From contig JAPPMM010000047.1 of NCBI GenBank assembly GCA_028819075.1, forward strand, positions 1-64,000: a DNA stretch of 64,000 bases, in the 5' to 3' direction. The translations under genes were made by a program, and so were the position numbers. The stretch comes from Gammaproteobacteria bacterium (GTDB taxonomy: Bacteria; Gemmatimonadota; Gemmatimonadetes; Longimicrobiales; Gaopeijiaceae). The notes below the pieces were generated by a model, which was not told the DNA's origin, searched no databases, and saw only the letters and a list, made by a program, of their open reading frames with translations. Positions 470-5,269 of this stretch are shown here, piece by piece (position 1 is the first letter of the stretch; the number at the start of each line of letters is the position of its first letter).

Positions 470-525
470 CGACGCGATTGCAGCCCGCTGCGGCTTCGCG
501 CCGCACCCATCCCCGGAGGAAGATG

Positions 526-1185
526 ATGTCGCGACGTACTGGAATCGCGATCGCAACAGCCGTGGTGCTGCTGGGCGGCTACTACCTGCTGGCCGACCGC
601 GAGGGCGCCGCGCCGACCTCGCCCGGGAGCGCGCCCGACGACGCCGGCCAAACGGCCGACCTGGGCCCCGCCGACGGCCGCGACCTGCCCGGCCAGGACA
701 CCGGCCGGGTGGCGGTCGGCGATGCCGCCCCCGATTTCTCGCTGCTCGCCTACTCGGGCGACGTGATCACCCTCTCGGACTTCCGCGGACAGCAGAACGT
801 CATTCTCGCCTTCTACCGGGGCCACTGGTGACCGTGGTGCGCCGGTCAGCTCGGGGAGCTGAGTGAACTGCTGGACGTCGACCAGGAAGCGGACGCCGAG
901 ATCCTTGCCATTTCCGTGGATGAACGCCCGGAACAGCAGATGATGATCGACCGGGTGGCCGCCGAACAGGACCGCACCCTCGACTACCACATCCTCGCCG
1001 ATCCGGACCACGCGGTGATCGACCGCTACGGCCTGTTCAACGCGGACAGCCGGCGCCCGGTCCCCCACCCCGCCGTCTACGTCATCGACATGGAGGGCGT
1101 CGTGCGCTGGAAGTTCATCGAGGTCGACTACCGCATCCGTCCCAGCAACGAGGACGTGATGGCGGCGCTGGCGAAGATCGGCTGA
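526..1185 (+). CDS. membrane-anchored peroxiredoxin/thioredoxin-like selenoprotein (in-frame TGA = Sec102)
   Basis: The 219-residue product reads through a TGA at 829-831. Residues 7-22 form a hydrophobic signal anchor, followed by an Ala/Gly/Pro/Asp-rich linker to about residue 60, then an AhpC/TSA-type thioredoxin fold. The family signature is F-Y-R-G-x-W-C-P-x-C. Here it is F-Y-R-G-H-W-(TGA)-P-W-C, so the TGA replaces the peroxidatic or nucleophilic Cys, giving a U-x-x-C redox pair at 102/105. The frame stays open and family-like for 117 more codons, with L-A-I-S-V-D, a Y-H-I-L-A-D-P stretch and [10 protein letters not shown] stem-loop suited to a bacterial SECIS follows the TGA. GGAGGA at 515-520 favours the ATG at 526 (another ATG lies at 523). 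The likely role is thiol- or selenol-based peroxide or disulfide reduction on the periplasmic side of the membrane. The alternative is a nonsense mutation; no Sec-machinery gene lies in the window. Confidence 0.8.
832..865 (+). promoter_or_regulatory. putative bacterial SECIS stem-loop
   Basis: Directly after the TGA codon, 846-852 (TCAGCTC) pairs perfectly with 856-862 (GAGCTGA) around a GGG loop at 853-855. Beyond one G/G mismatch the helix can extend by a G-T and a C-G pair. The loop begins 21 bases after the TGA and carries G at its first position. Bacterial SECIS elements typically have an apical loop 16-37 bases after the UGA and a G among its first two loop bases. Binding by SelB is inferred. 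Confidence 0.6.
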
Positions 1186-2998: not shown

Positions 2999-5269
2999 TC
3001 ACCCGTCCTCTCCGAGCAGCTCCCGCATCTCCTCCTCCGTAAGGCCGATGCTGTCGAAGTCGATGTCCTCCCCGGGGTCGGCGGGACCGGGAGGAGGAGG
3101 GGGCGTGGAGCCGCGGGCGACTGACCCGGATGTGACGCCGGGTGCCGTGACGGCGCGCGTGGTTCGGGATGGCGTTGCTGCCGGTGCTGGCCTGGGCGCC
3201 GTGGCCTCGGGCGCGGCCTGAGTTCCTGTCGCCGCCTCGTCGGCCTTCCTCGACTGCCTGCGCTTCTTCAGCGGGCGCTGTGAGATCGGCCTGCCCAACC
3301 ACGAACCCAGCACCTCGGCCAGTTCCGTCGTGTCTCGGCTACGGAAGAAGTAGCTTCGTCCGTTGACGGGACGCAGGTGGATGCCAGGGCCGATCAGCCC
3401 GAACGCTAGCGGAGGGCTCCGCAGGATCCCGCGGCTCAGCCAGGCGCCGAAGCCGCGCTCCAGCACAATCTCCTCGATGTCATCGGCCTTGAGGATGCGC
3501 GAGCGCCACGCGCGCGACTTGATGCGGATGTGGTCCTCGAAGATGAGCAGCTTGCGCGGGGGCCACGCTGCCAGGATTGCGGAGCCGGCGAGCAGGATGA
3601 CGAAGACGCCGCCGATCCCGGCATGTTGGATCACGTAGTCATCGACGGGCAGGAGCCAGCGGTCCAACCCCAAGCCGATCCCTGCCGCGGCGATGCGTCC
3701 CAGAGCGAGCGTGACCGCGATCAACCCGAGCGCGTACGCGGTTCGCAGCACCACCGGCAGCCGGAAATGAGCGACGTAGCGGATGTCCTTCATCCGGACA
3801 GGCCTGGTCAGCGCCCACGCGACCAACTTCAGCGTGATCCAGACCAGAACGGCCACCGCCAGCACGGCCATCCCCTGGCTGACCGGCTGCGGTCGCGACA
3901 CCGACAGGACCTGGCGAGACGCGTCGAAGGCGCGCGCGGAAAAAGACGCGACCTGGCTCTGGCTCAGATTCTGGTAGAAAGAGAGGACGTCGGGAAAGTC
4001 GGTGAAGGTGGCCGGGTCGTAGAAGACCTGGCGGGTCCAGGCGTTCAGGGCGTCCGCGGTCTGATTTGCGCCGCGCAGCCGTTCGATCACGGCGGCACGA
4101 TCCGCTTCGAACTCGGCCGTGGCGAGCGAGCCCGAACGCAGGTATTCGATCTCCTCTTCGATGATCGCGCTGGCGAAGTCGAAGTCGTCTTCGTCGATGC
4201 GGCTGCTCACCTGCAGATACGCCGCCGGCCCGCGCATCACCAGGTTGGCGCTCGCGCCGTACACGGCCTTGCGCTCGCCGTAGCGCAGGCGCTGGTTGAG
4301 CCGGCGGTTGAGCAGGTCGCGGACGAACATCGCCGTCAGCAGCTCGTCGGAGCTGGCGTAGAAGAGCTTGTGGCGCGACTGGTAGCCGGCCGTCGACTGG
4401 AATCCCCACCGGTACATGGACCGCACGCGCCCCGGGTCCTCGGCTGTGGTCGCCCACCGCTCCGCCGGCCGCGCGGGGATCGACCCGAAGGTGCGCCGGG
4501 CGCGTTCGAGCGCGTCGTCCCGGTCGAGGTCGCCGACGATCGTGACGGTCATGACCGCGGGCGAGTAGTACTGGTCGTAGAAGCCGCGCAGATCCTCCGG
4601 GGTGATGCCCTGCAGGCTCCGCCACATGTCCGGAAAGGGGGCGCGCAGCCGTTCGACGCCGAACTCGCGCTCCCAGAAGTCGGGGAACGCGAGCCACCCC
4701 GGGTTGAACGCGGCCACGAGGTGATCGAAGAGCTCGCGCGGGCGGGCGCGGATCTCGTTCTCGACCGGCTGCCGCCCGCGGTCCACCACGGCCGGGTCCA
4801 TCTCGTGCGGGGAGAGGATGCCGGCCAGCCACTCGATGGCGAACAGCCCGTGCTCCTGGCCGATGGTCACGTAGTACCAGGTGCGGTCGCGGTAGGTGAA
4901 GCCGTTGCGCCGCCCGCCGATCCCTTCCACCGCGTCCTTGATCTCCTGCTCGGTGCGGCCGTCGTGGTCGGAGAAGAGCATGTGCTCGGTGAAGTGGGCG
5001 AGCTGCTCCTTGCCCGGCGGATCCGCGTCGGAACCCACCGGCACCCCCACGCTCACTGAGACGTTGGGCGCGCCGGGAAGCTGCTTGAACCAGACCTTGA
5101 CGCCGTTGGAGAGGAAGTGGGTCTCGAAGCCGGCAAAAGGGTTGGAGGGTGCGGCCTGTTGGGCCTCGACCCCCGCGCCAGGCAGCACGGCCAACGCCAG
5201 GAGGACGACAGGCGGACCGGACCGCGACAGGCCGGCGAGAAGCCGGGCCGGCCGTAGCCGCACCGGCAT
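2999..5269 (-). CDS. M16-family metallopeptidase fused to membrane and PH-like domains
   Basis: The 756-residue product has a signal peptide (about 1-36) and a single M16 pair of domains (about 45-460). The zinc motif H-F-T-E-H is at 92-96, and Glu170/Glu172 sit 74-76 residues further on, as expected for the third ligand. Around residues 467-487, 509-530 and 551-569 it carries three hydrophobic segments. These are followed by a beta-rich stretch (about 572-660, K-L-L-I-F-E-D-H-I-R-I-K-S-R) resembling a bacterial PH domain and a Lys/Arg- then Pro/Ala/Thr-rich tail ending in an acidic patch. The start at 5269 overlaps the stop of the upstream lipoprotein gene (TGATG), which fixes the start and implies coupling. 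Canonical M16 proteins lack the membrane part. The likely role is peptide degradation at the cell envelope. Confidence 0.8.
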   Translation of the reverse strand: MPVRLRPARLLAGLSRSGPPVVLLALAVLPGAGVEAQQAAPSNPFAGFETHFLSNGVKVWFKQLPGAPNVSVSVGVPVGSDADPPGKEQLAHFTEHMLFSDHDGRTEQEIKDAVEGIGGRRNGFTYRDRTWYYVTIGQEHGLFAIEWLAGILSPHEMDPAVVDRGRQPVENEIRARPRELFDHLVAAFNPGWLAFPDFWEREFGVERLRAPFPDMWRSLQGITPEDLRGFYDQYYSPAVMTVTIVGDLDRDDALERARRTFGSIPARPAERWATTAEDPGRVRSMYRWGFQSTAGYQSRHKLFYASSDELLTAMFVRDLLNRRLNQRLRYGERKAVYGASANLVMRGPAAYLQVSSRIDEDDFDFASAIIEEEIEYLRSGSLATAEFEADRAAVIERLRGANQTADALNAWTRQVFYDPATFTDFPDVLSFYQNLSQSQVASFSARAFDASRQVLSVSRPQPVSQGMAVLAVAVLVWITLKLVAWALTRPVRMKDIRYVAHFRLPVVLRTAYALGLIAVTLALGRIAAAGIGLGLDRWLLPVDDYVIQHAGIGGVFVILLAGSAILAAWPPRKLLIFEDHIRIKSRAWRSRILKADDIEEIVLERGFGAWLSRGILRSPPLAFGLIGPGIHLRPVNGRSYFFRSRDTTELAEVLGSWLGRPISQRPLKKRRQSRKADEAATGTQAAPEATAPRPAPAATPSRTTRAVTAPGVTSGSVARGSTPPPPPGPADPGEDIDFDSIGLTEEEMRELLGEDG

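Follow-up and report, generated by a model that had tools for sequence, protein, structure and literature searches.

The gene at positions 526–1185 very probably encodes a true selenoprotein with a predicted redox role in the cell envelope, its internal TGA codon being decoded under the guidance of a hairpin within the coding sequence. All positions are those of the window, that is, the whole stretch of 64,000 nucleotides that was analysed. That the TGA is decoded as selenocysteine (Sec) is, from the sequence comparisons, close to certain. Judging by the conservation of the locus and the machinery encoded in the same genome, the Sec-tRNA with the anticodon UCA and SelB would decode this codon, guided by the hairpin. 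The features of the gene are listed in Table 1.

Table 1. Features of the selenoprotein gene, with positions in the window
Feature	Position	Strand	Basis
Selenoprotein gene, 219 residues, Sec codon 102, ending with TGA 1183–1185; product predicted to be an extracytoplasmic AhpC/TSA-fold UxxC redox protein	526..1185	+	Reading frame, Pfam, homologues, dN/dS
Ribosome-binding site GGAGG, 6 nt 5' of ATG 526	515..519	+	Sequence
Hydrophobic N-terminal signal or anchor segment, 24 residues	526..597	+	Hydropathy
L-G-P motif region, residues 45–48, opening the family domain past a variable linker	658..669	+	Invariant L46, G47, P48
In-frame TGA, predicted Sec residue 102, in FYRGHW-U-PWC	829..831	+	TGA in 58/58 matches and 68/74 genomes; TGC in the three orthologues of a selA-lacking genus
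Cys105, second residue of the U-x-x-C pair, aligned to peroxidatic Cys45 of AhpE	838..840	+	Alignment; Ser in one member (L036)
Putative bSECIS hairpin UCAGCUC-GGG-GAGCUGA, 7-bp stem, loop starting with G	846..862	+	Covariation, synonymous constraint; degraded in Cys orthologues

The frame contains a single internal stop, the TGA at codon 102, which is followed by 117 codons up to the terminal TGA. A second in-frame ATG lies beside the start, at 523, and congeners retain GGAGG or GGAG upstream of the equivalent start. The Pfam domain AhpC-TSA (PF00578) covers residues 64–195 and spans the TGA (2.1e-28; 99 bits with the cut-off of 26), so that the frame is family-like on both sides of it. The hydrophobic N-terminal segment is seen in 41 of 43 family members; simple patterns yield a lipobox-like match in ten of these and a signal-peptidase-like site in twenty. 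This segment probably places the AhpC/TSA-fold domain outside the cytoplasm.

Standard gene finding splits the gene into two fragments, as would be expected if the TGA simply ended translation, being a nonsense mutation, a mark of a pseudogene or a sequencing error. The findings below contradict this explanation, which we consider extremely improbable. An independent metagenome-assembled genome (MAG) of the same species carries an identical gene, with TGA rather than TGC at the Sec codon; the two assemblies differ at 7 positions in 4182 bp, all of them past position 3200, and hence the TGA is not a sequencing error. The gene has no other internal stop, and scattered stop codons are not seen in its close relatives. 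Purifying selection acts downstream of the TGA, where the NG86 dN/dS ratio is about 0.08–0.14 in close pairs; upstream of it the ratio is higher.

Moreover, the TGA itself is conserved. Among the related loci that were fetched, the aligned codon is TGA in all 58 matches with E≤1e-20, spanning the Gemmatimonadota, Acidobacteriota and Myxococcota, and is TAA or TAG in none; these matches include the same contigs fetched twice and correspond to approximately 43 distinct proteins, 47–99% identical. A search with one genome per species produced 29 loci, 28 of them with TGA, down to 47% identity, the sole exception being a distant homologue (31% identity) with Thr at this codon. In 298 genomes of the Gemmatimonadota, 74 have a match to the gene: one TGA is present in 68, Cys in three genomes of one genus, and Ser in three distant ones. 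Some of the acidobacterial homologues have TGC or TGT at the Sec codon. The motif W-U-P-[WYFH]-C is found in all members but one, where it is UxxS. The preliminary description argued that a random nonsense change would rarely hit this very codon; conservation on this scale far exceeds chance.

The source genome encodes the complete Sec machinery: a tRNA-Sec gene with the anticodon TCA (74.8 bits), SelB above the cut-off, SelA (516 bits) and SelD (301 bits). The genomic checks proposed in the preliminary description all turned out as it predicted. The SelD protein (L047, 1–2547) is fused at its N-terminal side to an NADH-dehydrogenase-like oxidoreductase domain, and its active site contains Cys and no Sec (CGGCGSK). 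The presence of this machinery is one of the arguments against genome-wide reassignment of TGA to Trp or Gly, or selenium-free read-through by a near-cognate tRNA, an explanation that nothing specific favours and to which we give very little weight. The gene itself is terminated by TGA, as are 21 of the 58 related copies. Trp in the gene is encoded by TGG, in particular W101, which is TGG in 43 of 43 members. Finally, the genus lacking selA replaces the residue with Cys, neither Trp nor Gly.

In the phylum as a whole, a tRNA-Sec match above the cut-off was obtained in 224 of the 298 genomes; because nine of the matches barely differ from the cut-off and similar weak ones proved to be tRNA-Ser, about 215 is the safer count. 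The match is present in 64 of the 68 genomes with the TGA gene, compared to 160 of the 230 others (Fisher p = 1e-5, a value that is too low as the genomes are related). In the remaining four genomes with the TGA gene no genuine tRNA-Sec was found, and SelA was found in all four. Weak tRNA-Sec matches in these four genomes and in two genomes of the Cys-containing genus were rejected, as they are tRNA-Ser or tRNA-Leu; therefore SelA was taken as the marker of the machinery. The suggestion that Sec use would be notable in this lineage needs to be qualified: with about 215–224 of 298 genomes showing a tRNA-Sec match, it is not exceptional, but the phylum is absent from the surveys that we searched. 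Several public MAGs of the source genus (L009, L010, L014, L015) bear the label Gammaproteobacteria, yet cluster with genomes of Gemmatimonadetes/BD2-11.

The three Cys orthologues (L082–L084) provide a natural control. They come from one genus, have TGC at the Sec codon, and have lost several pairs of the hairpin stem. In six genomes of this genus SelA is absent throughout; three of them contain a match to the gene and three do not. In the phylogenetic tree the Cys clade is nested in a broader Sec-containing group that spans several phyla. This fits replacement of Sec by Cys, although the root of the tree is uncertain and, in the phylum of L030 (Acidobacteriota), other Cys and Sec forms alternate.

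The candidate bSECIS element is formed by positions 18–34 counted from the TGA, with the consensus UCAGCUC-GGN-GAGCUGA in most members and GCAGCUC-GGN-GAGCUGC in the others. Compensatory changes are observed at two stem pairs, U-A to G-C and, in one member, C-G to U-A. The pairing in the stem is 95.9%, and the covariation score was reached by none of 500 shuffles. The stem codons are invariant or nearly so (CAG 43/43, CTC 42/43, GAG 39/39, CTG 42/43), even though synonymous alternatives would leave the protein unaltered, and the Arg113 codon, AGA in 23 of 23 cases, shows the strongest synonymous bias in the gene; unlike the stem codons, the loop codon for Gly is free to vary at the wobble position. 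The published model of bSECIS requires a stem-loop 16–37 nt past the UGA with G in the first two loop positions, followed by G/U (PMC13188914). The loop here starts with GG or GU (GGN or GUG) 21 nt from the TGA, in agreement with the model in both distance and loop sequence. The stability of the hairpin region is ordinary compared to dinucleotide shuffles (z −0.75), 54-nt windows downstream of the TGA do not exceed synonymous shuffles in stability, and the Rfam search yielded no SECIS family match. As the folding energy is not significant, the assignment is based on the covariation and on the constraint at synonymous sites. When the source genome was searched with a covariance model of the hairpin, no convincing second gene emerged: the next match had E = 0.047, and in none of the candidates was an in-frame TGA flanked by a redox motif.

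The AlphaFold2 model of the protein is confident from approximately residue 45, with pLDDT above 90 for most of the domain, and features U102 directly N-terminal to a helix. The closest solved fold is that of AhpE (Z 21.8, 1.9 A over 156 residues, 27% identity, TM-score normalised by the target 0.85), and by this match the fold is that of a peroxiredoxin. In the alignment with AhpE, Sec102 corresponds to Thr42, Cys105 to the peroxidatic Cys45, Arg98 to Pro38, and Pro182, nearly invariant in the family, to Arg116. Hence the preliminary description was correct about a U-x-x-C pair on a protein with a predicted signal anchor, but not in placing the TGA at the nucleophilic Cys of the AhpC/TSA signature: Sec stands in for the first Cys of a thioredoxin-like CxxC and aligns with Thr of TxxC, and the peroxidatic position is Cys105, three residues later. 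Neither the PxxxT/SxxC motif nor the catalytic Arg of canonical peroxiredoxins is present, the local sequence being RGHWUPWC. Since Pro, Thr and Arg are all replaced, the canonical peroxiredoxin site is dismantled; in its place stands a U-P-x-C of the thioredoxin type, and a conserved H-P precedes the strand that follows.

The active site would then be U102-P-W-C105 at the helix start. The U102 selenolate may attack a disulfide or hydroperoxide substrate, after which a Se-S bond would form with C105 and be reduced by a thioredoxin- or DsbD-type partner. We regard this cycle as reasonably probable; it would make the protein either a Prx-like thiol:disulfide oxidoreductase or a reductant-dependent envelope peroxidase. 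Selenol chemistry of the oxidoreductase type is favoured, because the peroxiredoxin site is replaced by U-P-x-C and Sec is kept in L036, which has Ser at position 105. The latter member is a second, diverged copy in the genome SB0662_bin_23, which also holds L023. It has lost the Cys, yet retains Sec and the hairpin, and this suggests that Sec is the main catalytic residue.

The main rival is that the same selenoprotein is a true peroxidase, in which C105 (or U102) attacks peroxide and a partner resolves the product, as in 1-Cys or atypical 2-Cys peroxiredoxins. Its top sequence and structure matches are indeed the 1-Cys peroxiredoxin AhpE and PrxQ/BCP, and the position of the peroxidatic Cys is preserved as C105. 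However, the peroxiredoxin Pro and Thr are Arg98 and Sec102 here, the catalytic Arg116 of AhpE is aligned to Pro182, and C105 itself is replaced by Ser in the Sec-keeping L036. We consider peroxidase activity possible, at somewhat worse than even odds, and retain the thiol:disulfide oxidoreductase as the preferred function.

Known families resemble this protein to a different extent. A "Prx-like" UXXC selenoprotein family was described in the Sargasso Sea set (PMC1088965), and Prx-like thiol:disulfide oxidoreductase selenoproteins assigned to PF00578, with UxxC or UxxU and the representative WP_010940744.1, are listed in Table 1 of PMC13188914. The shared features are the AhpC-TSA domain, distant homology to peroxiredoxins, a thioredoxin-like UxxC replacing TxxU/TxxC, and the predicted redox function. 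Unlike that class, the present family is centred on the Gemmatimonadota, has FYRGxW-U-P-x-C and the conserved blocks LGP...DGRDLP, PHP and DYR(V/I)RP, and is predicted to be exported or membrane-anchored. As U-x-x-C and the loss of the peroxiredoxin Pro, Thr and Arg fit the class of PMC1088965, the gene seems to be an unannotated, lineage-wide member of this already predicted kind.

PrxU (NF040737) also has the peroxiredoxin fold and an active-site Sec, but that Sec, according to the literature, occupies the peroxidatic position (TxxU), whereas in the present protein it precedes that position by three residues (UxxC); the NF040737 score is 46 bits with the cut-off of 270. AhpE, the 1-Cys peroxiredoxin of M. 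tuberculosis (1xvw, 4x1u), is the closest in fold, but its Pro38, Thr42 and Arg116 are replaced here, and it has no CxxC at the site. With the thiol-disulfide oxidoreductases of the ResA/TlpA type the protein shares a redox pair spaced by two residues, an extracytoplasmic anchor, and Pro before the V/T-Y-V-I-D strand. The best NCBIfam E-value belongs to NF002854 of this type (score 50, cut-off 170), and a profile search matches the protein to ResA structures. The differences are Sec as the first residue of the pair and peroxiredoxins as the closest full-length folds. In total, the NCBIfam redox families (PrxU, AhpC, ResA, SelL-related and others) gave 15 weak matches, none above the curated cut-off. 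Given that no curated NCBI model covers the gene, annotation pipelines likely split it.

The neighbouring genes contain no conserved operon partner that would point to a reductant, and shared neighbours track species relatedness. Between the selenoprotein gene and an M16-peptidase-like gene there is a hipB-hipA pair (1200–2996), formed by an HTH regulator (1400–1714) and a HipA kinase (1701–2996). In six other loci of the genus the flanks are joined directly, without hipB-hipA, and L017 has a shorter, partial copy; this pattern suggests either recent insertion of the module or its repeated loss.

Selenoprotein reviews and surveys that we searched do not mention Gemmatimonad*, and the full-text search, which covers few subscription papers, found no title or abstract on Sec use in the Gemmatimonadota. 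We tentatively suggest, as an idea that may well prove wrong, that the family forms a subfamily of envelope selenoenzymes in its own right, spread across the Gemmatimonadota, whose nucleophile is Sec at the peroxiredoxin Thr position, in a new division of labour with the old peroxidatic Cys, Sec being kept nearly everywhere and at least one Sec-to-Cys switch being tied to the loss of the whole Sec machinery. The genus that combines TGC in place of TGA, a decayed hairpin and no selA offers a clean natural test of such replacement. About three quarters of the 298 sampled genomes have a tRNA-Sec match, and many of these have no match to the 526–1185 gene; therefore other selenoproteins must exist in the Gemmatimonadota. 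Thus, a phylum that the selenoprotein surveys searched do not name has a conserved selenoprotein, and Sec machinery is widespread in it.
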